This document shows, piece after piece, positions 25,825 through 57,628 of a stretch of 64,000 nucleotides of DNA. The stretch is from Diprion similis (lineage: Eukaryota; Arthropoda; Insecta; Hymenoptera; Diprionidae): positions 26,254,001 to 26,318,000 of the forward strand of contig NC_060112.1 of the NCBI RefSeq assembly GCF_021155765.1. The letters run 5' to 3'. Each line of letters starts with the position of its first letter. The first letter of the stretch is position 1. Made by a program: the position numbers and the translations under genes. Under the pieces are notes generated by a model that saw nothing but the letters and a program-made list of their open reading frames with translations, did no database searches and was not told the DNA's origin.

Positions 25825-28800
25825 TTATTCTCTAGCGATAAGCTGTCCAGGGCGTCGTGACGCTATCCTACGTCTCGGAGCCAAGAGTCCACTGAGACCT
25901 CTGACTTCCTCTTGTTTTTGACTCGCGGCTGTGCTGGATTCAGTTTCCGCTTCCTCGGTGACCAAAGGCTCTGCACCTTCGGATTCTTCTGCAGAGGCTG
26001 GCTCACTGATAGCCTCCGTTGTCGGTGCCTCCGTTGTCCTTCTTCGGGGCAAAAGAGGCGACCGCCTTGGTGGAGGTTGCGTGGCCACTCGGGGAGCCTT
26101 CGGGTGAACCTGTAGTCTGTTTCTGTTTCTCAACCTCGTCAGCGGACTTTCGGGTGTCGTAGGCTGCGGTGGGCTCGTTTCCGCGGGGGCCTGAAGGTCA
26201 GAAAATTTTACCGGATGTTAAATTTAGTTGGATTTTAAGTCATAACGAGACTTGACACTATGAGCACAGAGACGCAACAAATTGATCATCACTTTCAAAT
26301 CGAACTTGAGTTCTTATGTACCTATTCGTCTTGAATCATGGTTTATTTCGGTTATCCAATGCAGTTAGTACAAGACTATCTAGATCTTCTATTGCTCTGA
26401 TTGCGTTCAAACTGACGTATTTCATTGGTGAGAAACTATACTTCAAAGGCGACCTACTTTCGTAAGAAGTTCGAAAAACATGACAATAGCCAAGCAATGG
26501 TAACTGCAATGCTTTGCAACATACTAATTTCTTTGAAATATTGATATTACGCACCGGAAAGTAGGTATACGACATGCACGTGGAGTATATATAAAAGTTC
26601 ATGCACAGCTGGCGAGGCGGAATGGCATTTGAAAAGGTCAATTAGTGAAAGTAACTGCGCGATGATCGTCTTCGGTTCATGCCAGATTGCGTGATTCGAA
26701 ATGCGATTTACCGGTACCAGCTTCGCTTCGCGTAATGACAAGCAAACCCATCGAGAGATGACATTTCGTTGTAGTTATAGTCAATTTTTGGCAAAAAAAA
26801 CTTTCATGAAAAAACTCGTCAAACCACTGCACTACTGGCATAAAAGTGAAACCGCTCAAAGTGGATTCCCTTACAAACCCAAAGAAAGGATTAATCTGCG
26901 AATAGAAACTGAGACCAACTCACCTCGTGAGATTCTTCCTCGGTGCCAGCGCCATCTGGTTCTTCAGCAGAGACTTCCGGCGTGCTGGGTGCCGCCGTGG
27001 TGCTTGTCGTCTGCAGCCCGGGTCTTGCTCGGAGGTTGATTCTTGGTCCCGGTCTGAGGGGTCTTGGTCCAGTACCAGGAAGTCTCGGTCTTACGACGGA
27101 CCGCGCAGTGGTACTGGTGACCTCCACGCTGCTGGTCTGTGCAGTTTCACCTGATTCCTGGGCCTCCTCGCTGGTTGTGGGTGCCGCAGTCGTCGGTTTT
27201 CCGCGTCTGCGGTTCAGGTTCAATCTGTTCAAGGATGGACGAACGACTCCGCGAGTCACTTCCGCGGAGGAGGAGGTCGACGATTCTTGTGAATTAGAAA
27301 TGGCTGGGGCGGCCGTCGTCGCTGATGACCTGGACGAAGATCCGCGGAATCTACCGCGACTTGGAAGGCTGGGTCTCTCGGCGTTCACCGAACCACTGCT
27401 TTGCTTCTGGACTTCTTCCTCTTCGGCTGGCTGCCGTTGTCCAGGTCGTGGCCTCTTGAAACCTCCGCTCGTTGATCCGAAGCGACTGCGAGGACGTGCC
27501 GGTGATTGCTCAGCCGAAGACGATGACTCCGTTGTCGTCGAGCTAGACCCACTGGTCTTGAACCTGACACGTGTTCAAATGAATAATCAAGAGTCAGTTG
27601 GGTCTCGAGTAAACTTTAATTATTCTTAACTTCAAGGCGAAACGTGGAGTTGATTTCACGCCAGAATCGAGGACCTACCTGTTCCTAGAGCCAATGCCTC
27701 CAGGTACTCCTGGTCTTCTGAATTTCCCCTTTCCAATCGTCTGTTGAGTTGTGGTGGTCGGTGGTTCAGTTGTGGTTGTGGTTGTGGTGGTTGCTTCCGT
27801 CGTAGTTGTAGTAGTTGTGGGCTCCGTCGTGGTTGTGATGGCCTCCGTGGTCGTCGGGACATCAGTGGTACTGTCGTCTTCCGACCAGGTGGTCGAATCT
27901 TCGGCGCTATCTTCGGGGGTGGAGACGTCGACAACGTTGCTCTGACCCTGAAGAAGGAAGGCGTAAAGGTCCAAAGCGACTTTGTCCATGGCTGAGGGGT
28001 TTTCTGTGGTCGGAACTTCGGTTGTCGTCACATCCATGAGGTCCTGCTCCTTCGAGGCGCTCTCCATGCTGACAGAGTCCTCGTGAACTTCTTCCTCAAC
28101 TGGTGCGGGGGCAGAGTTCGTAGCTGGATCGATCGGCTCAGCTCCTCCTTCTTTGCTTTCTTCGTCCGCAGTCGTTGGTTCATCTTTGTTCATTTCAACT
28201 TCAACCTGAAAAATTAGATGCATATTGCAACGACTTCTCCCCAAAGTTTTTATGGCATTCGATTATCTTACCTCGGGATTGGCAGCTGCGACAGGTCGTC
28301 TTCTGTGCGGCACGACAGCCTCTTCAGAGGTTTCCTCAACGGGTGCTGCTTCCGTGACCTTGGAGGGTCTTTGACGGGTACGGACGGCAGGCTTTTCTTC
28401 CGGTTCTTCGTTTGGGGTGACTCCCAGGAACCTTAGAGGTCCCTTGGGAAGGTTCTGTGGGAACTCAGGTCCCTCCTGATGAGTTCGAAAACTGCTGGAA
28501 TCAACAAGGTCCAGACTAGGTCGTGGACGGTTGCCTCGCGCTCGGCTAGGCTCCGTTGTTCCTGTGTTGTGATTCGACCTTGACCTAGGAATAATAACTC
28601 TTGACATTCACCTCGAAATCACAATAATTTAGCATTCCTAAAGTGCTAAATGTGTCGACTGTTTCCTCATCAACTTACCTGGGTGGAAATCTCGTGTTCG
28701 CGGGCAGTCTCTCATCAGACACTGGTTCTTCGGACTCAGCGATCTGTCTGTTTCGCCCATTGGCACGGCTTGGAATCACCTCGTTGCTGGCTGGTTCGAT

Positions 28801-31800
28801 GGTTGTCGAGCGATCAATGGACGAGTACTTATTCCTTCCGGTAATCGCATCACGTCTTGAGAGTGGCGATGGCGTCGTCTTGACCACATCGCCTTGAGTA
28901 TTTGTCTGGGAACCTGCTTTACCTTCGTCTTCTTCGTCGTAATAATAGTACACATATTCGTACTCGTAGTCCTTGCCGTTGGGTCCTTTTTTGACCTGAT
29001 GTTGGGGGAAAGAGGTCAGCGTTAAAGGGTCGAGAAAAAAAAATGGAGCTGGTTTTTGACTGTTTTCACTGTTTACGTTTTCCTTTCAAATTGGCTCACC
29101 TGGATGCGGGAATTTGATCCGGCGGGTACAAGACTGACGTCACTAAGGTCGCCAAAGTGCCGGTCGGCGAAGGGCGTGTAAGCGTCTTTGCTGTCCTCAC
29201 GGATGATGTTTACGGGCACGAAGTCGAAGGCACGGACCTCACGTGGGGTGGTTAGAACCGGCATCATGGTGGTCGGGTTCTCCGGGCTGATAAGTTCAGA
29301 ACATTAATGGAATAATGGTAGAGTTTACAGCCATGCCGCTTCCGCGATTCTTACCTCACTTCAACTCCAGGGATTATAGAGTCGGTTTGAGCCCCGGAAT
29401 TCTCTTTCGCAATTTCAATCTTCATCACTCCGTCCTCTGGCAGGACACCAGAGTTACTGAAATTCTCGATTTGCACGCGAGCCTGCCTTTTGGGGCTGTT
29501 CTTTTTGGACTTTGCCTCGTCTTCGTAGGGCTCCGACGTTTGTTGCGTTACCTTCTTCTTATCCGTTCGTTTATCGCGGCTCTGAACCGCTCGCTGAATC
29601 ACTTCCTTAGCGAGTTCCACCTCCATTGCTAGTTCCGCATCTTCTTCGTCGTCCTCGTCTGAGGGCTGCTCTATTTCTGCGGGAATCTTGTGCGCGGTTA
29701 CGAACTCTGGAAAAAAATCAATTTGTACCACAGGTCGACGGTTTTCTGATGGGTTTTCAGACCAGAGCTTCTAGACTCACCTTCTACGGGAATCGCTCGA
29801 GCTTTTAGCTGCGACGATTCACCGAGGGAGGAATCGTATTGCACAAATTCCTGACCAATTCGCGCTTGAGTCACGATGTCATCATCGCCCAGAACTGCGG
29901 CCATCACGCTACACAGCCTGGAAAACAAAATCGAGAACTTAAAGAGTGCTAAAATGTTCTCCGGAATTGCAAATTCGTAATGGTTAATTGATAATTTGCA
30001 GAATCGGTTGTACTGGAGGAAGTTACCCTAATAAACAGAAAATAAATTGTAATTGAAGGTTCTATTGATTGAGTAGCATTTCCCTAAATATTATTTGTAA
30101 AAATTCTTACGGATATTTATCTAGTGAACAAAAAACGCAAAGTGTCAATAATTTTTGTAATGCAAGGCATACCTTGAAACGTGATTCGATACTAAGCGTA
30201 AAGAAAATTGAATATTTTTATCGTTGTGAATTTATTACAGACGTTACTTTCACCGTCAAAATCTGTTAAAAAAAAGAAAAGAGAACTAGATCGAAACCGT
30301 AGAAAGTTAAGCCTCTGTTATAATTAAGTGCGAGATGCGTCGTGATAAATCAGGGTGATTTTTCTTGTTTCCTGATCCGCGATACCGCTAGTGCCAATTA
30401 TCTCAGGCCCACCTTGTGTGCTGGGCAAAAATACATTATTCAAAATGCTAGAGTATAACCGCGTGGACGTAGGCGATAATTTAACAACAATTACAGTTTA
30501 TTATATGTAGGAATGAAGTAGTTAGACGTGAAAATTAATTCGAGCGTAGACCCCGCGGGCTTGTTCGACCTTGATCCGTCCTCTTGAAATGGGTGTATGC
30601 GATTGGGATCAAGGTGGAAAAGGCGGGGATCAACGTTACCGAAGGCTCCTGCTTCTCGCCAAGGGAAGTGACGTTCTTGTCACGTGACAGTATGGCGGAC
30701 TCGCTTCTTCGAAATATTCATTCCGTGAACGAGTCCTTGCTACAAATCCGCACTGAATGCGGATAACGAATAAGTCACCGGTAGCCGACCTTACTCTCGT
30801 TTCACTTGCAGCCTATTACCGATCAATCCATTGTCACCGAGTCGTTCGAAATTCAAATGTGTATCCGCCTTGGCACCAGACAATTATACGCATTACACAA
30901 TGACACTAGAATTAAAGAACCTCATCCAGTCAGCTTAGCGACGCGATCTCAAGAAATAGAGTTAAGAATTCTTCAACCATTTTGTCCGAACTATATGAAA
31001 TGGCTGATTCTGAAGATAATTCATTTACACTAAATCAGTTACTAGCATCAATCTGTTCATCAAAAATAAAGAGAATCTGGAACTTAACAGCGTTTGAGAT
31101 GACGCGTTGGGGATGGTTTCGAATAAATCCGAACCAGGCGGCTGTTCGAACGTCCAAGTCGAATATGGCCGATGGAGTGGATGCGCAGGTGGTGAATTTG
31201 GCCGATAATCAAAGAGCGAAATCCTCTCATATTCTTGCGCGCGTAAAATATCCACAGGTGCTGTCGGATCGTTCGTATATTAATATACACGCGTGGAATT
31301 CATCGAGAAGAAATCATACGGAGAAAGTAGTTTTCTACACTACAGAGGCTTGGTTGGTGCAGCCAGCAGCCACGGCCCGGGCATACAGCAGACGTCTATC
31401 GGCGGACCGGGTTACGCAAGTCGCACGACGCAGCGTCACCGCAGAAACCGCCTCTAACCAGCCCACAGATGTTTCAACGGCTATAGATAATCCAAAGACA
31501 AACACACCAACATATGCTTAGAAATGTGATTTTTCATCCGCTTTTACCACTTGGTACCAGGCTTGTACCCACCACCTTCCTAGTGGTGAGCCGATCACGA
31601 ATGGCTGCCGGTCCTCATCGGGACGTTGGCTGGCCTCGGAGGGATGGCCAGGCCCTCGGGCCATACTTTCAACCGTTCGGCAGTCGAATGTCAAAATCGA
31701 CGCACGTTACTATTGCGAAAGCTGTGCCCACGGAATGTCGGAGTGCCTCGTTACCGCGGCTCATTTCCTCGGCTACCGACAGCTACCCCTGCTGGCGCAA

Positions 31801-33949
31801 TTTGCCCCAGGGGAACATCGGATACGAGTATCGTGTAGCGAATGAGTAGAATAAAGTAGCAGCAGAAGGGCTGAAGTACCGAGAAACTGAGAATTAATAA
31901 TAAGCTTTGCTAGTATGAAGAAAGAGGGATAAAGTTGGGATCATGAGATGATCTGGAACAGTGACGTTGTGACAGGAAGGTCTGAGGTCCTGTTATCCGA
32001 TTCTTGTGCTTTACATGCTTGTGCTAAGGTGTTCTGAAGTTATGTTCAGGAAGAAACAGGATAGCCTGAATGAAGGATGGTAGAAAAGTCTATTTGCGAT
32101 TAATCGTAAGTAAAATCCTGAGTGAAACCGGAATGCAAACGTCCAACTTGTGGAAGTGGTATTGAAAGTTCAAACGACGAGTACGCCAGTCGTGGTCCTT
32201 GAAGAAAACTTGAAACCAGCATTCAGTGTATAAATTTAATTAACGATTGAATGCAGATATAACGGTTTATTTTATTTTATGCGATTGATCGTTTTTCTAC
32301 TGCCCACACGCGTTTTAACGTTACGTGGGTGAAGGGTGGAGAAGAAAATGTTGCTGATGACATTACGGTGTGCCTGTAAGATGGAGGAGGAGGAGGATAA
32401 GTAAACCTCGAGACGCGTGACTTACACGAAGACAAGCGAGATTAACGCAACATGCCAACGAGTACTGGAGGAATCGAGTCGCACACATATATTCAGTTCC
32501 TCTATTTTCTCTAAAGCTATGAAAGTAGTCAGGCTCGTCTTCCAGCGAGAGGCTGCGACTGATCTGCAGCAAGCCGCTCGTTTTAGAAATCATCATACCG
32601 CGCCCCGTGATATTAAGCGACTCTCCAATTAACCGGGATTAGTTAAGAGGATTGTTCAAACATTGATTGAATTTTAAAAGGAGTTCAAGCAAAGTACGAT
32701 GATCGTTGAAAACACACGATGCAGCTACGTCGAGAAAAGCTCACTAAAATATGCTGGACAAAATGTTGTTTTTGGGGAAAAAATTTGTTAATAGTTTGGA
32801 AGTAGTAATATGTTGATATTAAATTGTCGTCTATGTTGCATATAAGTTTCAGTTGAGCTCATGAGACTACATAATCTCCGCGTTTGTAAATTTATGCAAA
32901 TAGCTTGAAAACATGATCGTCCGCTCTGTTGCAACATTCCAAATTTATATATACATATATATTCACATACATATTTATATATATTTTCTAGAAAGTAAAA
33001 TTTGACAAGCATATAAACACGCACGGTTTAACGACTTCGAGTTATGCATTTAACTATATATGTAATGGCTATAGCTTGTGTATACAATTAGTTATAACAG
33101 TCGATGGTGTGCAAACATCCACAAATCGCAGGTAGTCTTGCGTGTTCACGATTATGTATATTACAAGCGGCTAGTGCATTAACGAAACTTCAGAATGCCG
33201 ATGGGCCAATAAATCGAGGTAAGCAATTGCTAAAAGAGAAAAGAAAACAAAAGGCGAAGTTAAACGAAACGCCGCGACATCTCGGGATACTTCGACGACA
33301 ACGCGGTAAAAGTTACAACTCAGCTTGCAAACTGTACTCACGATAACTGATTTAGGACAAGCCAAGAGTGAAAGATTTCTATGCACATACGTAGGCCGTG
33401 TCGATCAGCAATCGCCTAGTTATTTGCCGGTTGCATCATTCACGAGGGGTTTGTGTATGCGAATAAAAACAATCAGGGTCTCTCTACAAGCCACAGGCAC
33501 TTTCCCGTCTCGCAGCCGGACGTCGCGTCGTCAGAGAACTGAACGCTCGCGCGGGACATGAAATTCCGCCATTTTTTCAGTACACTTGCAGAAGAAAAAA
33601 ACAGAATCGCAACGAGATTTGTACGCTCGATTTGGTTTTATGTGTCCCATTTTATTCTCGAGGTGTTTTTTTTTTTTTTTTTTCTTATTGTCGAGCTCGT
33701 TGCATCAATACCGCGAGTATATATATATACCGGTTAAAAAAATTGCGTAACGAGGTCGGAGATGACAGCCGTAAACTTTAAACTCTGGATCGTACAGTCC
33801 TGGCATATGGCGTAATGTGAAGGGTAAAAACGAGTCTGGAGTTGCGAGAATTGAACCGAGTCAAATAATAATAATATTAATAATAATAATGATTTCGATG
33901 GTACTTACAGGACGGCGCTCTTCAGCCACATGATATTTTCGAGCCTCAT
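25825..33949 (-). CDS. Secreted cysteine-free Thr/Pro/Arg-rich mucin-like protein, 959 aa
   Basis: Nine exons: 33949-33909, 29917-29781, 29706-29355, 29286-29100, 28995-28679, 28584-28272, 28205-27679, 27563-26924, 26190-25825 (stop). All junctions are GT-AG and in phase; 2880 bases give 959 aa. The start MRLENIMWLKSAV joins LCSVMAAVLG across a phase-2 intron to form a signal peptide. Regions in order: acidic segment (EQPSDEDDEEDAE), a Tyr/acidic cluster DYEYEYVYYYYDEED near residue 250, Arg/Pro stretches (RARGNRPRP, PHRRRPVAA), a Thr-rich block around 560-615 (mucin-type O-glycosylation likely), then repeated RSRF, RGRFRG, LNRRRGKPTTAAPTT and RPRLPGTGPRPLRPG, ending PRRRIASRRPGQLIARE. I find no cysteine after the signal peptide. 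Family not recognised; extracellular matrix, cuticle, eggshell or secretion roles are inference. Closely resembles the 215-aa gene at 52.3-57.6 kb in plan. Confidence 0.88.
29918..33908 (-). other. First intron of the mucin-like gene
   Basis: About 4 kb, starting at donor CT/GTAAGTACC and ending at TTTTGTTTTCCAG. It includes a poly-T run near 33668 and TA-rich segments. On the opposite strand an open frame from 30982 to 31521 (ATG at about 31000) and another to 31849 were read; neither resembles a family I know. No nested gene is supported. Confidence 0.6.
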
Positions 33950-34249
33950 TCTGCCCCGGATCCTCGTCAGCGAACTTTGAGCGAAGTTTAATAACGTTGA
34001 ATGATCGGCGGCACCGAGAAAATCACTTCAATCAATCTAACGTCACTGGTCACTGGCCCGCATTGCTGTTTCGAAAGCACTCGCCGAATCCGGGCGGCCC
34101 CTCTAGCACTCGGTGTTACTTCGGTGAATTCGGCTTGTCTCGGTGATCGGTGGTGACCCCCGAGATTTGGGAGGTGGAGAAGGAGCTCGTGAACACAAAG
34201 TGGCCAAGTTTATCGCGACAGCCGGACGCAGAAGGACACGGTGAGGGTA

Positions 34250-34283
34250 TGAGGACGGCCGCGAAGCCAGACCCCTACTTATA
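34250..34283 (-). promoter_or_regulatory. TATA promoter of the mucin-like gene
   Basis: On the minus strand TATAAGTA (34283-34276) is followed 33 bases later by an initiator-like CTCATACC, with A at 34250. The coding start is about 300 bases downstream at 33949. Spacing fits an insect TATA/Inr promoter. Confidence 0.6.
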
Positions 34284-37200
34284 CGCCACCCACCACGTCT
34301 ACCGTCGACACCCCACCAGCATCGAAGAACGGAGTCCCGACCGTCGGACACCTCTGGAGACCGTTTGCAGCAACTTCGATGCCCCGAGTCGGGCTGCACG
34401 CCGTCTTATGAGGAATCCGTCCACTCGACTAGATGCAGCCCATTATAGAGAATTCAAACTATTCACGGATTTACGATTTACGCAAGTTATATACCAGCTA
34501 GACGAACAGTCGAATGGCCGAGGTTCACGAGAGATTCATCGACGCTATAATGTTTGATGGACGAATGAGGAAATCATCTTGGGGATAAATCGTGTCGACA
34601 AACTTTCTGCAGTTGACATTCCATCTGTGGTTTCGTTGTGAACTTTGATGAACCGAAATTTGATATGCTGTAAAGATGATCAGAGAAACGATATTTACAT
34701 AATTAAGATATGAATATTTTTGTTCACTGCCTTTAAAGATGAGCAATCATTCTTTGACCACGATTATTTCATCTGGCTCGAAAAACACCTTGATCCTTGA
34801 CTCCGGGGCTTTATTCTTACTCATCGGTCTGCTGAGAGTCCATTTTGGATTCGAGTTACAGTTTCCATATATTTTAGTTATTCGAAAGATTAATTACTCT
34901 TTTTGAGTCAACGATTTTTATCCATTGCGAAAAACTGGATCTTACACCGTTCATCGAGGTGAAAATAACGAAAGAAGCATTGTTCATTAAAAAATTTTAA
35001 AAAGGCATTTTCGAGTTTATCCTGAGGCGTAAAACCAGAGCAGAAAAGCGATTTGGGGAAGTACGTTGCCGGGAGGTTTCATGCGAGTCGTATTTGCTGA
35101 AAATGACTAGATGTGAGTCAGACACGGATTATTTGGCCTGTGGTAGACCTCGTGGTGTCAAGGTCTGTGAGAGCTAGTGCGGTAAGAGTTCGATCGGGGT
35201 AACCAGAACGCCGTTAGACTGGCTTGCAAGATTCGCTGTGACGTGACTAATTTACGTAATACTGAGGCTGCGACTCCTGGAATCAGAGATTCTCACTGTG
35301 AGTTTAAACGCCCTAGCGAAATGGAGGTGGAGAGAAAAACAAAGACACGTTCTGAGACCGAGTGGAACTAACGACTCAAACATCTTATAATGCAGTGGCA
35401 ACATCCAACGGAGCTTGTTACTTGTAAGAACTATCACTTTCGGTTTTGCATCATCTTGGCAATATTGTTTTTTTCACTTTACGTTGCTCCCTGAATTCTA
35501 TCCCACCTCGACCGTTGTTTCGTTTTGACGAGTCTTTGAACCTTTCATTAATAATCCCTTCAACTGCTTTTGCCATGAAAATGGAACTTCTTGCAGGTCG
35601 GCATTGGCTATCAAGAGACTATAGATAGAGGATTGTTGTTAGTTTTGAAGGAAAAGGGTTGATTTTTTATATTTTGGTCACTTCAAAATAAGATTGAATA
35701 AAAATGAGCGAATGTTTCAACACTTTTAATGCTTAAAATCTTCTACAATGTCATAACTCCTCTTCACGAGTTGGTAAATTCCACAATTTCGTTCAAGGAT
35801 CCCTTTCATTTATGCTCGTAAATTGTGCTTTTTATGGGTGCGAAGAAAATATATGAACTCGAAATATCGTTAGCGGTCACCTTCGATAACCATTACCTGA
35901 GAACCCGTCATTTTCGTTTTTCTGGCAAACCCCAACTATCATTCTAAGAAATTTCTCTTACACATCTGAAACAGAAGAATTGACTGTACATGAATACCGG
36001 TTTTAAATGCTAGTCGCAGAGAAGCGAGCCAGCACAAAGGTTGAAATATTTAGAATAATTACTCCCAAAATCTCGCAGTATAAGTCAAATTGTGATTAAA
36101 TCGAATTGTTCGATGTGTCGTAAAAGAATGTCGTCAAGAAATCATCGTTTATAACGGATTTTTCGCTTCGACACACTCCTTACATAATCATCAACACATA
36201 ACGGTTGCCAACTTCGAGTGAAACTGCACAAGCTCAATGGTTTTTCATTTTTCTCTTACAACGTAATTGCTAAGAGAATTGAGCCTAATCGAAATCCCCA
36301 GCCGTGTACTGCAACTACATAAAGATTCATTAAAAATCGATTTTCATTAATTGGGAATCGTCACTTCTAATTTCACACGCATTTCCTCATCACGACTGGC
36401 TGCAGCAACAGCCACGAGCACTCGCAATCCTTATAAGCCCCACTGTGACTTACGGTAGATAAAGATACAAATAATCATCGTTAGTTGTACTCGCCTCGTA
36501 ATTGTAATTCATTAACACGTCTATCGTATCCGCTGCAGGCCAGTGTCCGTGCAGACAGGCCGAAAGACTGTCCGAATAAGGATGATCAGTGTAGGGAAAT
36601 AAGACCCGATAAGGTCGCTGGGCAGCGATGCATGAGGTCGGTCGTTGATCTGTCCGAAAGAACGTGGCCGAGCACAAGACGGAGGCCCCGAGTCACCTTG
36701 AGTGCAAAAAGAAAGAAAGAAACTAAGAAAAGAAAGGATAAGTCACGACTGGCAATGAGGAACCAAGTGGATCCGGATTCACTCTTGTTTTTGCCCTCCC
36801 TCGAGGTTTCTGCAGCCGAGGACGGCCACCACTCCAACCAGCAAATCCCTTTATTCGGACTTCGGACTTGGTGTCGGTGATTAGCAGCCACAGCATGGTG
36901 CGTACTCACCTTCTTGCAATTTAATCCAACAGCGGATTTTCTATTGCCCCATGACGCAACCAGCCATGATGGTCTCGTTGTTGTGAATTACGGTGCTGCC
37001 CTGCTCTGTACCAGTTCGGTAACTGATCTCATTTGAGTCACCAAGTCCAACCGGATCCGAGTCGAGTGAACGAATGCCAATCGTGAATACCGTGACGCAC
37101 GTCAGAGGATTGTGCAATTTGATGTGGTAGGATTGTTAACGTTAGGCGATTGCAGGTTGCCTCAAAAATCTTGTATCGGGACGAAGAGGAGCCGCCGCGA

Positions 37201-40079: not shown

Positions 40080-40200
40080 GTTCTCAGTTAAACCGATCTT
40101 AAATATAATCGATCAAGTTACATCCAAATCGGTCCATCCGTTTACGATATACTGTCAGACAAAGAAATGAAGATTTTTTACAATAACTCAAGAAGAGTCG
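40080..40200. mobile_element. Degraded transposon-tail remnant
   Basis: The words AAATCGGTCCATCCGTTTAC and ATACTGTCAGACAAAGAAA resemble the 'AATCGGTCCAGCCGTTT...CAGACAGACA' segment common in insect transposable elements, as I recall it. No termini or frame remain. Confidence 0.35.
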
Positions 40201-41381
40201 AGCTGGCTCCGCTCAAAATCTAATCAGCTTGGAGTTAGAAAAATCCGCATCGATGTAGACCAAAAAATGGATCAAAAATCCAGGCGTCGGCCTGAAAATG
40301 TCCAAAGATGAATCTCGAAACTCCGAAAACATTTTTTCATTTTTAGAACGATTACAACAACTTCTCCTGGACTCTGCGTAGAGAAAAAGAAGAAGTTGAG
40401 AATTTCTGGCGCCTGTCTGATGACGACAGGTCTCTTGTCTTCGGGACTTTTACTTTCATTCGTGGATGTCGAAATATGAAAGATGGATAAGATTGAGACG
40501 AGCTGGAACTTCCTCATCAATACCTTATTCAACGATTGGAAAACTCACTTCAGCAAGCTTCTCGGAAGTGAGTGATAATCGTTGCACCCAACTTTTACGC
40601 GGTCTCGAACTATTACTTTCTCTCTGCGCGGGTGGATTTCAGGTGACAAACGATCGTGAAGGCAGGCATATCAGGCGAGCTGTGATCGTCGCGTCGCTCA
40701 CTCGAATACTCAAACAAGGAAAGTTAGTCGAACGGGTTTCAATGACCTTGACTAATCCACTGTGGCTGGTTGTGTGTTGCATTTAACGGAAATAGGCACG
40801 CCGTGTTGTTTTCGTTTTTGACAAGTTTCATATTCCGCACGTTTAAAGAGTCGCAAGAATGTTCTCGCCTTTAATCCATAATTCACTCGGCTAGGAGGAT
40901 ACAGCATGAAAGAACGATTCATGCAAATAAAGCGTCTCATAAATACCGAGATCTCAAACCGCGAGAGAGGAAAAAATTGTTGGCTTTTTTTCTTTGTCTT
41001 GTTATTGTTGTCACGTGCCGACAAAAAAGAGAGAACAAAATGTACAAAAGATGGGAGAGACTTGTGGAAAGAACAATTAAAGAGCTGACAAAAAGAAAAA
41101 AAAAAAACTCATCGTCGTCGTCGATTCCTGTAGCTGCATAAATACAATTGATTATAAACAACATAGCCTTTTTCATTTACTCTTAAATTATCCACGGATT
41201 AACGAATTCGTTCCACTGATTTTCAACTCTTTCTAATCACCAATTCCTTCGTTGAAGCAAAAAAGACCGATTAACGATGGCGCAACTTTGCTATTCGAGA
41301 ACCGTGAATTCCTGAAGGGGGTCAACCACCCTTGAATCAACCGAACTCTTCGTCTCGGGAGGAAAGTCAGTTCCAATTTAA

Positions 41382-42102
41382 GGCCTTAGGCCACTCTAGA
41401 GGCCGAAAAAAATAGGCTTTTTGGGGATTTTTTTTCAGAAATACTACAAAATAAATCGAGATAACAGAAACTTGATTTTGTTATTCATATCAGTGACTGC
41501 TTACAGTAATTTTTTTGAAGCGATTTATTTCAAAATAGCGGCTGTGCAGCGTTTTTGCGACTACGTCTCCGTTTTTTCGGGGTCCACGGCCGGACTAACA
41601 GCCCCTGTAATTTTTTTAATCATAATGAGCTAATGAATTTTTTTGATTATATGTAATAACTGCTATAGAAGTACGTAGGATTTTTGCGACATATTGATTT
41701 TTGGCCAAATAGCGCACTTCTAAAGTGGAAAGTGAAGAACCTGCCTAAAAAATTGTCAGATAATTGTTAATAACAAATGAACTACGCAATATAAAAAAAA
41801 ATCTTACATACTTCTATAGCAGTTATTATATATAATCAAAAAAATTCATTGGCTCATTATGATTAAAAAAATTACAGGAGCTGTTAGTCCGGGCCGTGGA
41901 CCCCGAAAAAAAGGAGACGTCGTCGCAAAAACGCTGCACAGCCGCTATTTTGAAATAAATCGCTTCAAAAAAATTATTCTAAGCAGTCACTGATATGAAT
42001 AATAAAATCACGTTTCTGTTATCTCGATTTATTTTGTAGTATTTCTGAAAAAAAAATCCCCAAAAAGCCTATTTTTTTCGGCCTCTAGAGTGGCCTAAGG
42101 CC
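41382..42102. mobile_element. Foldback MITE flanked by TTAA
   Basis: 721 bases bounded by TTAA on both sides (41378-41381 and 42103-42106). The left end GGCCTTAGGCCACTCTAGAG is the inverse of the right end CTCTAGAGTGGCCTAAGGCC. Each arm is about 300 bases with few mismatches (for example GCGATTTATTTCAAAATAGC inverted in the other arm), leaving a loop of roughly 100 bases near 41690-41785. TTAA duplication is the mark of piggyBac-type transposition, so a piggyBac-mobilised non-autonomous element is the inference. No coding capacity. Near-identical arms suggest recent activity or gene conversion. Confidence 0.92.
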
Positions 42103-43522
42103 TTAAATTTTGTGCTGTTTTCAAATGCGAGAATGCGAAGAACAGCTACATACGATTTGTGTCGAGCTCAACCGGGAGTAAATCTATGTGTCTTATGCCT
42201 CTCGACACTGATTTCTAACAACGTTCACAATCCACGAACGTGCAAGCAACGTCATGTTTATCCAGCGTCGCGCTTCCGTGTCTCAAGTTACGAACTGTAA
42301 TCGTGTTTAGAATCTTATCCGACCAAATTCAACTCTGGCATTGAAACTGATGCACCCAATTGCGCGATTTGGATTCCGGTCCGTGAATTGTCGTGCAGAG
42401 AATGAACACCGTTCACGTATGTCAGGCTTATCCATTAAACGAGAGTGCCTGCATGGAAACAGCCAACCACGTGATACATACGTCATTTTGTATACAATTA
42501 AAGAAGATCTGGATTTTTACCGGAACTATTAAAATTGCAAAGGCCGCAGCAGCTACAGTAACGGACCTTGAAAGGCACTCGTGAATTCTTCATAGTGCGC
42601 GAGCCTCTCGAAGAGTGAAAGGATCCATTGGAAATGTCATTTCTGCCCACATCGTGAGGATTTATGAAGTGTACAGTCCGGAGAGAAAAGTTACACAAAA
42701 TGGAAAAATTGTAAAACAGAGTTTAAGAATCGATAACTTAATTGTGAATTGAGTTTTGGTATAAATATTATCGGAAATGTTGATCATTTAAGACGCTTCA
42801 CATCATCGATCAACTTTCGTTAGTGCTAAGATCGTATGGTTTTGTCCAAACTCGATAAATAATATCTCATTTTGATTGTAATTAAAGTCCATGCAAATCA
42901 CCTCTCATGGATTTTTTACTAAAATAAACATGTTTTGGAATATCAAAAACCCAAATAAAAGGTTGGTTTATTATCTGCAACCTGTATTGATTTTACATGA
43001 ATAGTGCAAACACTAAAGTTCAGGAATATTGCAGATAATCGATTCACAAATCGAATGAAGCAGCACCCAATAAAATTTGACGTAATATTAGATAATTATT
43101 TTCATTTCCATGAGTGGTAAAAACAGCGCAACGTCTATATTTCCCAATAACTGAGCTCTGTCCATGAAAATCCATTGATTCTTTCTCGTTTCTCCATGTG
43201 CCCGGATCACTATTTTGACCTGAGTCGACTTGATCAATCTCATCCATACTCACAATCATCAGTCTTGATTTCGTAATTCTTTCATTAAGACACTGTCTCA
43301 TCTAGACTGCTCGCCTGAGGCATCTTCGATTCAGAATCCGTCAGAGCCCAACAGCCACAATGATTTAGAGATTGGCACGAGATCAAGAAACTGCATCATA
43401 AGCGAACTTTTCAATCAAGCCCAGAAGCGACGGGAGTGGATCGCGATCGAATCTCTTCAGAACCGGATGTCGAGTTGACCCAGATCCGAAGGATAGTAAA
43501 GAGGCTTCGTTGTCTCGTCCCG

Positions 43523-43560
43523 ATCGCTCGCTCGCTCGCTCGCTTATTCGCTCACTCACT
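43523..43560. repeat. (GCTC)n microsatellite
   Basis: CGCTCGCTCGCTCGCTCGCTT followed by degenerate CGCTCACTCACT. It creates Ser/Glu/Arg-repeat open frames on both strands that are not genes. Confidence 0.9.
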
Positions 43561-45418
43561 TTGCTCGCCACGGCGCAGGAGAGAACCGCGGATGTAGTAA
43601 CCTTAACATTGAAAGAATGGCCGGCCACTCGCTCCTCCGACTCCTCAACCCGACCACTGCAGCGTTGCCTCGGCGATTTTTGTCCCTCGAGCATAACCAT
43701 AACGATCATGAGTGATCGTCGCGAGACACAAGCGCCAATATCTGTGCCAGAGTCGTTTCTACTTCGCTTGCAAAAGTTTCCTTCCATCGGCGTTCTTCGT
43801 GCTTCTGAACCACTTCCACACTCCTCGCTTTATGCGACGATCTCTAATTTTTTTTAAACCAGATCGTCGCTCCATTTTTTTTTTTTTTTTTTATTTCTAT
43901 TTTTGCTTGTTTTCTTTTTCTTATTTTCTCTTGTCTACATCATTGAGTCTTTGGCCTTCTTTAATTTAGCCAGATATAGCGGACTTTTCGTAACTTCCTG
44001 CTCTTGTGAATTCGCAGGATACGTTAAACTTACTGTGCTTTTAATGTACACCTAATAATACAATATTTATTTGCCAAAAGTCCTTTAACGCCACTGATTA
44101 ATTTCATTCAATTCGATGTGAAGAAATCGTTAATCTCTACTTCTCATCGTTTTCTTCAATTGATCAGAGTCAAATTAATCTTTTAAAATTACTTTACGTA
44201 ACGGTATCTGAAATGTCATTTCTTTAACAACAGAAAATCCATAAATCGCTCTTCAACTTGATGAAATGATTTATCACGTCGTAAATTTATTCGAATCGAA
44301 TGAAATTCAATTATATCGTAAAATCCAATGATCAGGATTATAAACGGTTTTACGCGATACTTTTCACTGTACAGATCGCTTCTGTGCATAAACTCGTATA
44401 ACGAGATCGTTATCAAACTTTCGCAGGGAATCAGGATGCCTTCGATCTCGATTGCCGAGCTGGGGATCGAAACGATTTTTAATCACTATTGGGATCGTGC
44501 CGTTGAAATATTCTCCTACGGTGATTGCAGAGACCTTTTTAAAGCTGGCAATTCAACGGTAACAATAATTTTTACCATTTTTATTTCCTATGAAGAAAGA
44601 TTCAGCGATGGTACACGTATATTTATGGCATTTGTTACGCCAATTTTACTGTTAACTTCCAGGCACCGATCAGTGTATCGATACTTATGACACAATACCT
44701 ATCTAACTCGGTTGACGATAACTTTTCGAGTAGAAAGTAACGATTTCGTTGGTTCATATCCACCTACTATACCTACTCAAATTCCAATTGCGTAAAATTG
44801 GCCGAAGCTTCTTTCGCATCTTAAAAGTATGTTTGTATGTTAATTATTCGCAAGTTATGTTTAAGTGTCGTTTGGAAAGCACCTCAACGTGCAGGAATGA
44901 AAAAGCGTAGAAGTTCGATAGTCATTTGGTTGCATGAGAAGAAGATTCAAAAACTCTGGGGTACCGGATCAGTCCGAATTTTGTTATCTAAAACTTTCTT
45001 GTTGTTTTATTATATATTTTATAACCAAGTCAGATTTAATTCGACGCCATTTTCTGCCGCAGAATATATAAGCTGCCGGCACGCGATGTTCGTCCAAAAG
45101 TTTTTTGCAGCCTCTCGATAATTATGATAATCCTCGGCCGACGCGGGCGAGAAACGTACGTATAACCAACTTCTAGTCTTTGTATGCAACACACTCTATA
45201 CATGCTTACATACATCCAGCTATCAGGGAAAGCGTGTGTAAGGATTTCTGACCGAGTGAAAGTCCTCGGATCTCTCCCTCCCCTTATACTTCTCACCCCC
45301 GCACCGAATCGCCGTCGTGCGCTTTGCGATTCTCTGTGTAGAGTATCTCATTTACTCGTCTTGCATTATACGGGTATAAATACAGGTCAATTTTATATAT
45401 ATATATACATATACATTA

Positions 45419-46031
45419 GGGTGGCGCAAAAAAACCGACTATTTTTTTTTTTTTTTCGAGTCGTGTGACAAAATGTTAGTTTTTGTTGTTTTAAGAACCG
45501 ACTCCAAAGGACAGTTCAAAAAAAAAAATTTTAAGAGGTCGCTCCACATTTTTTAAAACGTCAGAAATCGTTAAAAATCTTCTTTTTTTTTTTAATTTTT
45601 TTTCACGTTACGGTATAATTTTATAGACAAAAAAAAAAAAAAATAAGTTTCCGAAAGTTTCAGTTCAAAATTTGAATTTTGAAAGATCGGTCATAATTTT
45701 TTTTCAATTTTTTGGTGCATTTCTTTAGATCTTTTCGAGCGACCTTTTAATATTCATATTAAAATTTCACACATTTTTTTTCTTTTATTTAGTAAAAAAG
45801 AATCGATAACAATACACCATGGCATGAATTAAAAATCAAACAAAATACTGAAAATATAATTTTTTTAATTTAATTTTTTGACGATTTTTGACATTTTTTA
45901 AAATTTGGTCCGACCTCTTAGAATTTTTTTTTTTTGGTCTGTCCTTTGGAGTGGGCTTTTAAAACATCAAAAACTAAAATTTTGTCACACGAGACTCAGG
46001 AAAAAAAATTGTCGGTTTTTTTGCGCCACCC
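45419..46031. mobile_element. MITE with TA target duplication inside a (TA)n tract
   Basis: 613 bases flanked by TA (45417-45418, 46032-46033). The left end GGGTGGCGCAAAAAAACCGA is inverted at the right end TCGGTTTTTTTGCGCCACCC. Internal inverted matches include GTGACAAAATGTTAGTTTTT, GACTCCAAAGGACAG and the AGAGGTC word, so arms extend about 150 bases or more. A TA duplication points to Tc1/mariner-type mobilisation (inference). It landed in a TATATACATATACAT microsatellite, half of which lies on each side. Confidence 0.92.
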
Positions 46032-47188
46032 TAATATATATACATATACATGTCGAGTAATACATTACATCCAATAATAGTGCACGCAACTAACGACATT
46101 AATTTTATACCAAACAAATCATTGAGCTGGCCAATTTTCATAAATAATATCACTCGATTAGAACGAAGCTTGCGCACGCATTCATGCCTCTGAGCTTTTT
46201 ATCTAAATATCTATGCATTTTTATGCGCGTGATTAATGAGTAATGAAGGAAATATTGCAGATTTTGGTTCTCAAAAAGTTTTATAAGCTACTAATTACAG
46301 TTGATAAGTCGATTGTTGTATTTCTGAAATTTTTATTGAAAATCTGTATTTTAACATCAACATAATATATTCTTCTTCTTCCTGATCTCAATAGTAAGAT
46401 TTTTACTATTTCAATGGTTGCTAACAAATTTTCACGTATCTAGATGCATCAAAGAGAAACTCCAAACTCTTGAATTTTTGATAATCCGAAAAAGTTTCAC
46501 AAAACAAGTATTTTTCCACCTAGTTTACTCGATTTGTATTCATTACGTAAAATTGTTACTTTAAAAAAAAAAGCTCCTTGCGTCATAATTTTTCTATTAA
46601 AAAATTGTCATAATTCCACGGCTATTCTCTTAGCGTAAAGATTAAAATTTGATATCCGATTTGCAATCTGCTAATGAAATTGTACCCCGTTTTGCTTCAG
46701 TTTTTGGAAGTCATCTTGGGTCGACAACTTTTCTGTAGGTGTGAGACGGATTCCTTCACGGCTTGAGCATCTCAAGAACAATTATCTTGAGTTAACTTGC
46801 ATAATTTAACTCAGAGGGAAATAATAAGTACATACGATGAGAAGATGCGGATGCATCTGAGAAGAGGTGAGACGACAACAGTCAGCACACATGCCGCTCG
46901 ACCCATAAAACCAACAAACTTTTCATAATTATTTCCTAGTTTCGTAATACAAGTGGTTTGCGTCACATTATTTTCCTCCGATTTCGCCTGTTTTACATCG
47001 AAATTACGCTTCGCGCCTCGTTGTTAGCACACGTTATAATCGCAATTCCTGTTTCCCAAGTGCTCGAGTCCGAGGAATTGTGTTATTTTTTGCACAACAA
47101 CAACGCAATTAGAGACCGGAAGAGCAGAGAACGAATATTCTTTTCGCAAGTGTGTCAATTTTTAATTCTAACGCGCATTGTTCCTGCA

Positions 47189-47282
47189 ATGTCCGCGGCG
47201 GTTTTCGGCGAATTTCCGGTTCTCAGTCAGCTTCTTTCCGCCGTTTGTTGCATCCTCGCTATACTTCCGGCTGCTGCAGCAG
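47189..47282 (+). CDS. Possible first coding exon with a secretory leader
   Basis: ATG at 47189 opens a frame reading MSAAVFGEFPVLSQLLSAVC then ILAILPAAAA, a good signal-peptide-like hydrophobic run. It ends in a plausible donor, GCAGCAG/GTACGA, after 31 codons plus one base (phase 1). If real, the rest of the gene lies in exons further right on the plus strand, with the 215-aa minus-strand gene nested in an intron. I found no matching downstream exon, so this may be chance. Confidence 0.3.
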
Positions 47283-48578: not shown

Positions 48579-48614
48579 CTTCTTCTTCTTCTTCTTCTTC
48601 TCCTTCTTCTTCGT
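48579..48614. repeat. (CTT)n microsatellite
   Basis: TTCTTCTTCTTCTTCTTC with one C interruption, about 36 bases. Confidence 0.95.
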
Positions 48615-48902
48615 TTTCTGTGTACATATTATATGACTATAAGATCGGTCGTTGCCACGCGATATTTTGAGCCCCGAGTCATTTCGCAAGCCCCAATCGT
48701 TCCTACTCTCTTCATAAGTCCTCTGTCCTTCTCTACTTCTGCGGCGAAGACGTCGGAAAGGTCAGGTTGGAGGTTGCAGGCGTTCAGCTCCGACTCGCCG
48801 TCATGCTTCGCTGCTCCGCTGCTTTTTCGCATTACAAATTTACACTTCCTTCTGCGGTTGAAACTGATATGCGGAATCGCAAAAGCAAACGACTTGTTTC
48901 TG

Positions 48903-48951
48903 CCTCTCTCTCTCTCTCTCTCTCTTATCTATCTCTATATATATATATCTC
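48903..48951. repeat. (CT)n-(TA)n compound microsatellite
   Basis: A CTCTCTCT run passing through TATCTATCTC into TATATATATATAT, about 49 bases. Confidence 0.95.
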
Positions 48952-49016
48952 TTTGACGTCAATCGTTTGATACGCAAAAATTTTCGGAAGAAACCAAAAA
49001 CAACGGAAATCGGTTA

Positions 49017-49037
49017 TGTATATATATATATATATAT
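49017..49037. repeat. (TA)n microsatellite
   Basis: GTATATATATATATATATATG, about 21 bases. Confidence 0.95.
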
Positions 49038-52000: not shown

Positions 52001-52277
52001 ACAATTCATACGACACGTCAAATCTATTATAAAAAATAAATCATTTACGAAGAGTTTATGCAATAGTTGGAGATTTTCATTTACCAAAAAAATATCTAAA
52101 AAAAAAAAACAAAAAAAAAAACAATAGTGATAATAATTGTAAAAAAAGAGAAATGTAGAGGCTTCAGTCAAGCCATCACCCCACCAGCACTTTGGGGCTG
52201 ACTTCTTCGCTTCAAACTTCTGTCTTCGTTATTGGCGAATTGATTTTAGCAGCGGAATACGCTGCTTGCACGCGTTT

Positions 52278-55200
52278 TTAACCTCTGCGGAACGGCTTAG
52301 GCTTCACTTGAACTTCTTCCCGCTGGGTTTCTTCCTCAACCTCTTCCTGCACGGGCTTGGCAGTGCCTCGTGTGGCTCCAAATCTGCCTCGATTTGATCT
52401 TGATGCACTGTCCGCCGCTTGGCCACCTCGGCTTCGACTGTTGTTCGACGAAATTGACCTGAAGGAAGTAGAAGATTAGAATCGTCAGACGATCTTCACC
52501 CTAATTGTTTGTCATCCATAACGACCTCTTGACGTCGTATTTATTCTCAAAAAAAAAAAAAAAACACTTTCGAACGAAGACACCGATGAAAAACTATACT
52601 TTCACTTTAGTCAGGGAAATTAATTTCGATGAACCTCAGACTAGACCTTCCGCTGTAATAGCTTATGAACTCATCGATTCAAATCAGTAAAAAACACTCG
52701 AACTCACTTTGGTCGTGGAGTTGTTGGTTCAGCGGCCTCTGTCGTGGGAGAGTCACGAATGCTGTTGGTGTTAACAACCTGGGCTCTTCTCCTCTTCAGA
52801 GCGGCGAGAAGGTCCTCATTGGATCTGAAATTCGAATGTAGGACGTAAGAAATGTTCCGTTGTAAAAGGTGTTGTTTTAATAGCATGTCGAGAGCATAAC
52901 TGATCAGGCGAAAGACTCTGAAGGACTCTTAATGGCTCACCTGAAGGGCCTGACTCCTCCTCGAATCTTCTTCGGGGCTTCGGTCGTCGTGGTCTGGACT
53001 TCCTCTTCCGCCTCTTCACTCTCCGCATCGTACTCTTCACCACCTCCCAGTTCTTCGACGGGTTCTTCAACGGGCTTGGCGGTAGTTGTGGTGGTCTGAA
53101 AACACCGTACATGAACGATGTGACAGTGGATGACGGATAATCAAATCCTGGAATAATTACCGATGCAGGTTTCCTTCCGACTGGACCTCGTCCTCTGGTC
53201 AAGAGAGCCAGACGTCCTGCGTTCCTCGAAGGCGCCTGAGTTACTGGAGCCACTGGGGCTGGTGCTGGCTCGTCATCGTACTCGTATTCCTCTTCGGCAC
53301 AGTTGCATGCGGCGATCAAGCAAAGAGCGACCAATCTGAAGCAATCAAGGCGATATCATGAGACTTTTTAACGATGTTGATGACACTTGCGTTCCTGGGA
53401 ATTTTCAAACCTGTATACCGTCAACGGAGGATGATTGGCAGCATTTACTGCTACATTATGAAGGACTATACCTATATATACTTCTAAAATTTTTATCCAT
53501 TATTCTGTAGACGAGGTGAATAGAGACGTTGGGTAAGATCCTTAGACAGGCTAGACTAGACGCCTGCGAGATGACGAAGACTGGAAAACTCGTCTCTCAG
53601 TGCCATAATATCGCTGGTGTCGTTGTAATTATGAAGATTGAACCGCAGCCTATAATCTCGGCGCATGTCTAGCACCGCAAATGGATCTACACATACAATT
53701 TAACGTGCAAATGTGCGGATGCCTTGATCTGTGTATTACGACTTACGACTTGTGCTGGTCCATGGTGCAATGAAATACGTTTGTTCATCATTCTTCACGT
53801 GGCATTTAGATGTCAAGCAAGATGATCATATTCGACGTTGGGTATACTAGGAGCTAATCGTAGAAACCTGCTCATATAGCAGCTGAACTTTTGGCTGAGT
53901 GTATTTGAATTTATTGACAAAATAACATGACATTTGCAAATGATTCAATCTGAGAAAAAAAAACTAGAAACTAAAAAGACTAGGCTTCTACACTCCGTTC
54001 CGGGTTGGGTCGAAGCAATGGTCCCATGACGCGCGGATAAAAGAAGGAAAACAATTGAAATATACTCTTTACGTCGTTCCTGACATGGAAGAGTTACAAG
54101 ATGTTTGGGTATCGATATTCATCAACTGCTTGTGCGTAATTGTTTGCATTATTCATGGCCCAGTCTCGACCAACGTGACTTCTTCAAAGCTATTCACGGA
54201 CTACAAAGAACCCGTAGATTTGTAACCACATGGAAACCAGATTCCTCATGCCCTATGACATTCACGTACCAAACTGACTTTCTCTGCCAGCTAACTCGGC
54301 ACCATGCAGCCCCAAGCGATTCTCCGGTTCGTGGGATACGAAGAAACCACGAATGTCACCGAACTCCTTCGGCTTCATCTTTGTCTAATATTCTTATCCT
54401 AAACATCGGGAGCCAAGATTCATTTTAGTTCATCGTTTCAAAAACCTCCTCGGTATATTAAAAAATCTATGCAGCTGGTTTTGTAATCGGTACAAAACAA
54501 GTATTCCTGACATTCTCTATCTTTATACCGTACATTCCAACCAGGATTTGTTGTAATCTATTTATACATCGGTGCTCACTATTCCTGACGATGTCCTTGA
54601 TCCATCTTTCATTGTGACTCGTGGAATGTCGGAAAATTTATAGTGTTGAAACCGAAAACGAAAAGTCAATAACAGCAATACGTTTTCCGAAATAACGAAG
54701 CGAATGCAGTCTGGCTTCAAGGTCTCTGATTTAGAATGTGATTAGGAAAAACCAAACATGGTCAAAACAAATTATATTTGAATAACCAAACCTGTCGGTG
54801 CCGACTTCAGGTATAATAACTGTTCATCTATTTTCTGTGAAGCAGCACGTTTAAAAGTACTTTACGACGGCTATAAATATTCACCTTCGATTTAGATAAC
54901 CATTTTCGAGATTTCTACACCATGGTATTCGTCTTGTCTTTTTAATTTTGAAATTTGTGTGTTGAAATACGTGGTTAACATCGTCATTTCCAATCCACTT
55001 ATGCATAGTGTGGATAAAATGCCTTCCACTTTGAAAACGAACATTTAATTAACCGGTCAGTATTCATGTCGAAAAGCATCGTAAAGCGCGTCGATTAGAT
55101 TTCAAATACTGTAGTCCAAAAAAAGATTGCATTCTCCAAATATGTCGACACCAGAGCTAGGAAAGTGATGTTCCATACCAGTCTACACCGAAAAACGTGG

Positions 55201-57628
55201 AGTTCAGCTGGACTGATTGACACAAAACCTTGTAACAACTCGATACTTCTTGTTCATTATTTAATCAAACTAAACCAATAAATTTTTTCATCTCCATTAT
55301 GCCCCGCGTTTTTCAATTACCCAGAACGTGGCGCGGTTGGAAAGACCAAGCGAAGCTTGAACGTGGCCCGAGTGGGACTCAGTGAAAGTGAGGATCTCTG
55401 GAGGCGGCTTAGCGCTGCCGGGTTCGAGGTGGCCTTTGAGAGATTCATCGAATGAAATCGAAAGTGGATATTTTCGAAAGAACTTTAAGCTGAGCATCAT
55501 GCGATAATGAGAAATGTAAGTAGGCACCATGCACGAAGCGATATAGCAAATAGGTTCAATAAGCGAGGGATTTGGAGGCACGTTGCGCCCCTTGGCGATT
55601 AGCCAATTCGTTGTATGAAAGTTTATGTAACCGAAAGAGCATACTTATATCCCTCTGTGAACCCTCCCCCTTCTGCCAAGTCTCTACGATTTGCCAATCG
55701 GGATTTTCGACCGTCATCGGCTCAATAATATCGAGGAAAGGATCTGCCGTAAGAATCCTTGAGCCAATAAGTCTTGATATTGCTTAACGCATTGTCCACA
55801 ACTTCAGTACGCAATTGAAAGCGTCATAATTATATTCAATCACGAACTAAGAGGATTGTCCATTTCCAACGATTTTTCCTCCAGAACTTCTGCAATCAGG
55901 ATCAACAATCAACGGTTCTCCATTAGACCATCTCTGATAGACGATCCAAGTTACTGCTTTGCGGAGACTTCTTGGTCTCGAAAGACATTTTCCCTGATTG
56001 TACACATCATGATTCAGACAAACCAGTAAAACCGTTGCGAGTTTTCGTGCGTGACGCTGATCTCAGAGACTTTCGGTTGACCCCGATCAAGTGAGTATGT
56101 GGTACTTGCTACAGCCACTGGTGACCCTTCACCAATGCGAGAAAACCGAATTTAATCAAGCACCGGATTTAATTGTAAGCTTGTTTCTCGCCTCGTAAGT
56201 AGATAAATAATACCACGTGGTCGAATAATTGGACAAGGCCTTGCCCATTTTTCCGACATAGATCCAAGCTACCTGTCCGTGAAGGAAGATCGTAATCACG
56301 GATTCTATCGCTCGAGGGATCGAATCGAGTCTTGGTTCTTTCGAACCCAGGACGAGGTCGTTGAGAGATTCGTCGAAATTTTATCGTACGTGCATTCAAC
56401 TCATTACAGAGCGTACAGATGATTATAGATTGTGGTATAAATTAGCCGTCTTGTTTCCTCGTTATAAGAAGTTTTCAGATCTTACGCAACGTGTGATATA
56501 ACCTGCAAGCTATGCAAGACCGCGTCATTATTTGTTCAGATAAAGATTTATGGACGAATCCTGATTATCTTCATGTGACTGACCGCAATATTTTAATAGC
56601 CTTCGCTGCAAATGTAGCTGAGACTCTTACTTGAACATTGTCGAAGCTAGTGATCGATAGTAATTGTAAAACCGTTAATTTGTGGTCGTTTGAAGCGAAG
56701 CATCGATTTTGAAGCAACGTAGCAAATTATACTAGCTCGTATAAACATCTTGGAACCGTAATTTCCTGAGGAAATTCACAGGTGAAATTGAACGCTCCGA
56801 ATACTGCGAATTATTTCAGGTCATCATTATCGTGTCATTTTATTGGTTTTGGGACTATTCGCAATAAGTAGAAAGCAACGCTTGAAAAATATCAGTTTCA
56901 ATTATCGCGTTGTTTAGTATTTTAATAGCGGTCCCATCATCAAAATTTCTATACTTCTTCCGGCAATCAAATCAGCCTGCCGTTATAACAGGCAATTTCA
57001 AACTAAATGATTAAATTTTCTGCCAATACGCACTTTCCATTTTGCACGAGCCACCAAGCAGCCACCATATGTTTTCTCTCGATCGCCGTTCACTTTTGTA
57101 GTTTTGATCAGGTTCCCTTCCAATTACTTATTGCTATCATGCATTTACATTCCGAACTATAGCGCCGTATCATTCGAATCCACGTATCCGTTCATTACAA
57201 CTTATTATCGGAGCGATATTAAAATGAGACGGCAAATCGTGGATATAGAAAAAAGAAAAAGAACCATTGTATACAGTAGAAACAGTTCCTTACGTAAGAA
57301 GCCGCTTTTCAAACCCTGCGGTGCAATGCGCATGGATCGAGTCTGGTAAAATATCTGACTGACCGACTGGCCTCCAGATACCGGACGAAAAAAGCATCCA
57401 TGTTTATTCAACCAAAGACACCTTGTCGGTTCGTAAAAAAAACTCGCTAGACAACAATCGAAGACTACTATGATAGTGGAATCTCAATCTAATGGAGTCT
57501 ATGCAGAAGTCAGCACTGATAAATCACTGCGACTTGGAACGTTTACTTTCAGATGATGATTATTGGGACCCATGGTACCATCATGGATGGTTATTTTAAT
57601 GTACTCACGTAACAATACGGAGCCTCAT
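52278..57628 (-). CDS. Secreted cysteine-free acidic/Arg-rich protein, 215 aa
   Basis: Five exons: 57628-57609, 53335-53161, 53095-52941, 52824-52708, 52458-52278 (TAA). All junctions are GT-AG and in phase; 648 bases give 215 aa. The start MRLRIV joins TLVALCLIAACNC across a phase-2 intron to make a clear signal peptide, probably cleaved just before AEEEYEYDDEPAPAP. The mature chain has an acidic Tyr segment, a basic RGRGPVGRKPAS region, TTTTTAKPVEEPVEEL, an EYDAESEEAEEE block, TTTTEAPKKIRGG, SNEDLLAALKRRRAQ, SNRGRFGATRG and a C-terminus KPKPFRRG. No cysteine occurs after the signal peptide. Family not recognised. It matches the 959-aa gene in signal-peptide intron, about 4.3-kb first intron, TATA promoter and composition; a tandem relative is likely. 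Extracellular matrix or cuticle role is inference. Confidence 0.88.
53336..57608 (-). other. First intron of the 215-aa gene
   Basis: About 4.3 kb between AC/GTGAGTAC and TTGCTTCAG. I see no nested gene; open frames at 54105-54428 and 55297-55581 have no recognisable domain or splice support. A large first intron often carries enhancers, but none can be read here. Confidence 0.6.

Follow-up and report, generated by a model that had tools for sequence, protein, structure and literature searches.

What kind of protein is encoded by two low-complexity genes, termed A and B here, in a 64,000-nucleotide stretch of the Diprion similis genome (Hymenoptera, Diprionidae), and are the two related to each other? 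The stretch, referred to as the window, comprises positions 26,254,001-26,318,000 of contig C8 (NC_060112.1) in a 269-Mb, 60-contig assembly (GCF_021155765.1), and all searches against the own genome cover this assembly. It has the appearance of an arthropod genome, with (TTAGG)n arrays at the start of contig C1 and 87 stretches matching the R&R chitin-binding domain (PF00379). In a first-pass annotation made from the letters alone, A and B had been described as a two-gene family of secreted, tyrosine-rich proteins; their unusual composition was seen correctly, and was over-read as one Tyr-rich family. The explanation favored here, with a somewhat better than even chance of being right, is that A and B, built independently of each other, encode two secreted matrix proteins that are intrinsically disordered and of the type found in cuticle or apical extracellular matrix. 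Among the components of insect surface coats, low-complexity secreted proteins are poorly named, and the clean gene models of A and B make both proteins testable. The predicted genes and their exons are as follows:

25825-33949, minus strand: gene A, predicted coding sequence with introns; 9 exons, 2,880 nucleotides including the stop codon, 959 amino acids; low-complexity, signal-like start
33909-33949, minus strand: A exon 1, start codon followed by the beginning of the signal-like region; end phase 2
29781-29917, minus strand: A exon 2, remainder of the signal-like region and onset of the mature chain; end phase 1
29355-29706, minus strand: A exon 3, an acidic stretch followed by a lysine-rich one; end phase 2
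29100-29286, minus strand: A exon 4; end phase 0
28679-28995, minus strand: A exon 5, acidic Tyr cluster at residues 249-258; end phase 2
28272-28584, minus strand: A exon 6; end phase 0
27679-28205, minus strand: A exon 7, acidic stretch, then Thr-rich run; end phase 2, donor GTAGGT
26924-27563, minus strand: A exon 8, Arg-rich words RSRF, RGRF and VRPRL amid Ser/Thr blocks; end phase 0
25825-26190, minus strand: A exon 9, with the stop codon
52278-57628, minus strand: gene B, predicted coding sequence with introns; 5 exons, 215 amino acids; low-complexity, signal-like start
57609-57628, minus strand: B exon 1, start codon and initial signal-like residues; end phase 2
53161-53335, minus strand: B exon 2, remainder of the signal-like region and acidic Tyr pair; end phase 0
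52941-53095, minus strand: B exon 3, run of Thr, block of acidic residues and TTTTEAP; end phase 2
52708-52824, minus strand: B exon 4, block rich in Arg/Lys; end phase 2
52278-52458, minus strand: B exon 5, the single RGRF of B and the stop codon

As predictions, the two same-strand gene models of the first-pass annotation held, with nine and five exons. Both genes splice in frame, with GT-AG borders at 12 of 12 introns. Two adjacent donors are present at A exon 3, and the frame is kept only by the second (exon end 29355) and broken by the donor 5 nucleotides upstream. The spliced A sequence contains only the terminal stop in frame 0, with 18 to 46 stops in each of the other five frames, and in the shorter spliced B the coding frame is free of stops and the remaining frames hold 2 to 10. 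The GC content was about 0.56 in the coding sequences versus 0.40-0.41 in the introns. The MRL start of both proteins was also confirmed, as was the phase-2 first intron within the signal-like region, announced as 4.0 and 4.3 kb long and measuring 3,991 nucleotides in A and 4,273 in B. Both genes are probably real and probably ordinary, and would encode disordered secreted proteins of a matrix type, the models and cleavage sites being predicted.

A TATA box had been assigned to each gene, for which the candidates are:

34278-34283, minus strand: TATAAG, candidate TATA box of A by sequence match, 334 nucleotides upstream of the ATG
57820-57827, minus strand: TATATATA, candidate TATA box of B by sequence match, 199 nucleotides upstream of the ATG

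TATA-like sites are thus present at 34283 and 57827, but their assignment is uncertain because second TATA-like sites occur at 34493 (TATATAA, gene A) and 58204 (TATATAG, gene B). A single initiator pattern was tried and gave 0 matches in the two upstream stretches checked.

Cleavage was assumed after residue 24 in A and after residue 19-20 in B, leaving mature chains of 935 and 196 residues. The only cysteine of A is residue 16, and those of B are residues 12, 17, and 19, with none past the signal-like region, as had been claimed. The mature chains are rich in Glu, Thr, Ser, Pro, Ala, and Arg, with His at 0.9% in A and none in B, and Gly at 5.3% in A and 7.7% in B. The label Tyr-rich does not apply, Tyr accounting for 12 of 935 residues in A (1.3%) and 3 of 196 in B (1.5%). 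The acidic Tyr clusters are present as described, and at least three acidic residues lie within five positions of 9 of the 12 mature Tyr in A and of all 3 in B. Acidic surroundings favor tyrosine sulfation. The TTEAP-like runs were also borne out by five TTEA-type words in A and three in B, counts reached by 0 of 1000 shuffles for either protein. The repeated R-x-R-F words, the other shared element of the earlier description, are a property of mature A (n = 3; reached by 0 of 1000 shuffles), but B has a single such word, a marginal count (38 of 1000), and the RNRF and NRF words are the same single site.

A carries its Ser/Thr blocks in the C-terminal half (residues 538-612, 616-658, 688-738, 749-787, and 804-829), and a single one was found in B (141-163). 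Charge segregation exceeded that of 500 of 500 shuffles in both proteins at window sizes of 5 and 6, and the observed variance of the 30-residue net charge was reached by 0 of 500 shuffles of A and 1 of 500 of B. In a charge-hydropathy comparison, A and B both lie on the disordered side of the Uversky line.

The in-frame models, the hydrophobic signal-like N terminus split by intron 1, and the absence of later Cys point to a matrix protein in each case, together with the segregated charge blocks, the Ser/Thr blocks, the Tyr in acidic context, and the lack of a match to any described domain. Judged by their sequences, A and B are most likely disordered, charge-blocky, Thr/Ser-rich proteins of a cuticle or matrix type. 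Each would be secreted to an epithelial surface and remain unfolded there. The Ser/Thr blocks would act as spacers, probably O-glycosylated, and the acidic blocks, including the possibly sulfated Tyr cluster, would bind blocks of Arg/Pro, whether in the same chain or in another. Multivalent contacts of this "sticker and spacer" kind may produce a network held by charge, in which some Tyr would be sulfated or oxidatively cross-linked, and oxidation may later fix the network. An O-glycosylated, Tyr-sulfated matrix component had been suggested before; the Ser/Thr blocks, the acidic-context Tyr, and the disorder-type composition fit this idea, but the modification itself is presumptive. If the proposal of interacting charge blocks is true, A and B offer a small two-gene system for the study of coat assembly by disordered proteins. 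Vertebrate small leucine-rich proteoglycans (fibromodulin, PRELP) have Tyr-sulfated and Arg/Pro-rich tails. In A and B, the Tyr cluster in its acidic context and the blocks of Arg/Pro resemble these tails as possible charge partners, by analogy only, and unlike fibromodulin and PRELP, A and B have no leucine-rich repeat match (Pfam, expectation value [E] up to 10). For the Drosophila salivary-gland apical matrix, sulfation is described as required for its order in the excerpted text of PMC12456955.

That no named family had been recognized in the first pass agrees with the searches. With E allowed up to 10, Pfam returned nothing for either protein, B had no match in NCBIfam, a mainly prokaryote library, at E up to 1, and A gave one chance-level match only among PDB sequences (E 0.76). 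A 206-residue piece of A had no relatives among prokaryote genomes and viral contigs, as expected for an animal gene and uninformative on arthropods, and Rfam at gathering thresholds gave nothing in the window. In titles and abstract openings of the literature on Thr-rich mucin-like hymenopteran secretions, novel hymenopteran cuticular proteins, and the cluster words, no such family appeared. Tweedle and CPF/CPFL domains were not found in A or B (Pfam, E up to 10; families as defined in excerpts of PMC12426002). Resilin, marked by Gly/Pro-rich repeats with Tyr and by an RR-2 domain, does not fit either, given the Tyr contents of 1.3% and 1.5%, the Gly contents of 5.3% and 7.7%, the occurrence of PGG once in A and never in B, and the lack of PF00379. 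Because they combine a low-complexity chain with a signal-like start, a trait of unclassified low-complexity cuticular proteins, A and B would fit only that loose class (PMC12426002, as excerpted) and no named cuticular family.

Several observations weigh against a cuticular matrix assignment. The chitin-binding R&R domain (Chitin_bind_4, PF00379) had no match in A or B at the Pfam threshold of E up to 10, and the GYR and YLP motifs have 0 literal occurrences in the two proteins and no Pfam match. Among the 87 PF00379 stretches of the own genome, none lies in the window, and the nearest one listed for this contig stands at 21.13 Mb, about 5 Mb off; position therefore gives the cuticle reading no support. 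The shuffles used for the charge blocks destroy ordinary local composition too, and the blockiness is therefore a description and not a proof of assembly.

The gene plan shared by A and B had been called distinctive. According to the excerpted text of PMC2259329, an intron in the signal-peptide region is found in 86% of the intron-bearing R&R (CPR) genes of Anopheles, a conventional TATA box in 126 of 153 CPR genes, and 55% of CPR genes have two exons. A split signal region with a TATA box being common in these cuticular genes, the plan of A and B is no mark of their kinship. A and B resemble the CPR genes as excerpted in the short first exon, the first intron in signal-like codons, and the TATA-like site, traits that are common in CPR genes and do not define them. 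Unlike these genes, they lack the chitin-binding R&R domain and have nine and five exons, and they differ also in that phase 0 occurs in only 3 of 8 introns of A and 1 of 4 of B.

Secreted proteins of this general kind have precedents. TcCP30 of Tribolium is described in excerpts of PMC4440208 as a low-complexity, highly charged cuticular protein (36% Glu, 21% His, 19% Arg, and 16% Gly) that lacks the R&R motif and becomes cross-linked. Compared by that description, A and B are likewise of low complexity, predicted secreted, highly polar, well supplied with acidic residues and Arg, and devoid of R&R, but unlike TcCP30 they have little or no His (0.9% and none) and abundant Thr, Ser, Pro, and Ala. 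In the C. elegans pharyngeal cuticle, 48% of the gene products secreted at the molt are predicted to be disordered and one phase-separates in vitro (PMC9629831, in excerpt). The low complexity, predicted secretion, and disorder-type composition of A and B are like those of C. elegans IDPA, IDPB, and IDPC as described there, although A and B come from a different phylum. Nematode epicuticlins, predicted to be disordered and discussed as weak polyampholytes in excerpts of PMC9612446, carry Tyr motifs such as GYR, from which A and B differ by having no GYR.

The proposal of a two-gene family is not supported by the comparison of A with B. Their best local alignment scored 81, against means of 72.5 for globally shuffled B and 76.8 for B shuffled in 20-residue windows, and this score was reached against A by 85 of 500 global and 152 of 500 windowed shuffles. 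The best BLASTP match covered 9 residues at E 0.64 (E 2.6 with filtering), blastn between the DNA of the two loci gave nothing below E 0.61, and tblastn in both directions gave nothing below E 0.70. A has the intron phases 2,1,2,0,2,0,2,0 and B has 2,0,2,2, that is, 1,2,0,2,0,2,0 versus 0,2,2 past the first intron; matching the positions themselves would require an alignment. A 264-kb scan around the window for motifs derived from A and B (at least 3 matches, open reading frames [ORFs] of at least 45 amino acids) retrieved seven ORFs, six of A/B and one Ser/Thr homopolymer ORF, and hence no third gene of this composition. With both genes masked, tblastn with A and B over the same 264 kb (low-complexity filter on) gave no match at E up to 1. 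In the own genome, the search with whole B (E up to 1) retrieved only B itself from 10 scored candidates, and that with a piece of A exon 9 (E up to 0.001) retrieved only its own locus from 3. What A and B have in common is a style, namely a split signal region, a TATA box, no Cys, and mixed charge, and a shared gene plan with similar composition does not alone make a family. The resemblance most likely reflects compositional convergence or a kinship too old to detect, judging from these comparisons, and a family is not demonstrated. Ancient tandem paralogy within one insect-specific matrix family, in which the two would have diverged beyond recognition and retained the MRL start, the split signal peptide, the Tyr-acid cluster, and R-x-R-F, would account for two genes on the same strand about 18 kb apart that are the sole ones of their composition in the motif scan. 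The equal phase and similar length of the first introns and the R-x-R-F count, above chance in A and marginal in B, speak for it as well, but with an alignment within the shuffle range, no BLASTP or blastn match better than E 0.64 and 0.61, and diverging later phases, we consider it unlikely. Very improbable is the bolder version, in which A and B would be an undescribed two-member insect matrix family. The sulfated acidic-Tyr blocks of one chain would then bind the blocks of Arg/Pro and R-x-R-F in its partner, and the neighboring, co-regulated genes would each provide one half of a surface coat driven by charge.

Other secreted functions were weighed against the same composition. Many glandular proteins are of Ser/Thr-rich composition, and mucins are less usually strong in Arg. 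Mucin-like secretions of silk, mucus, or accessory glands, in place of cuticle, would agree with the Ser/Thr-rich blocks of A and B and the absence of a chitin-binding domain, but their strong Arg content makes such an origin doubtful. Precursors of small secreted peptides, with RF-type words beside basic sites, are suggested by the KR/RR pairs (15 in A and 4 in B) and the one furin-like site, in A. Against this, A lacks glycine-dibasic amidation signals and the only one of B (VGRKP) does not adjoin an RF word, and the residue after the RF words is K, G, or R, with ordinary residues beyond it; a peptide-precursor function is extremely improbable. An amidated RF-peptide precursor was rejected, with no G-dibasic site after any RF word.

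Two repeat elements were found in the surrounding sequence. At 41375-42109, between A and B, lies a 735-nucleotide element resembling a miniature inverted-repeat transposable element (MITE), formed by one large inverted repeat whose arms are complementary over 61 nucleotides at 100%, 186 at 92%, and 114 at 89%. At least 25 further near-full-length copies with 93-95% identity occur in the own genome (40 of 63 candidates scored). The second element, at 45418-46033 with inverted ends GGGTGGCGCAAAAAAACCGAC, belongs to an abundant MITE-like family, represented by itself and at least 39 near-full-length copies with 90-92% identity (40 of 1,596 candidates scored). Also between A and B, on the plus strand at 47189-47282, a signal-peptide-like exon start, MSAAVFGEFPVLSQLLSAVCCILAILPAAAA, is followed by a GT donor-like site; no continuing exon was identified for it, and the ORF matched nothing in Pfam at E up to 0.01.

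Elsewhere in the window, three ORFs of an SLC26-type sulfate transporter (PF00916; E 7.9e-07, 1.4e-15, and 5.9e-18) are located at 4502-9526 on the plus strand. The transporter was set aside as a sulfation partner of A and B, adjacency alone being no evidence. At 19222-21159, the minus strand has two ORFs of ATG9, an autophagy protein (PF04109; E 2.6e-85 and 5e-43). Outside the window, an open frame of 1,956 codons from stop to stop begins on the plus strand of contig C8 at 26,339,753 (85,753 in window numbering).

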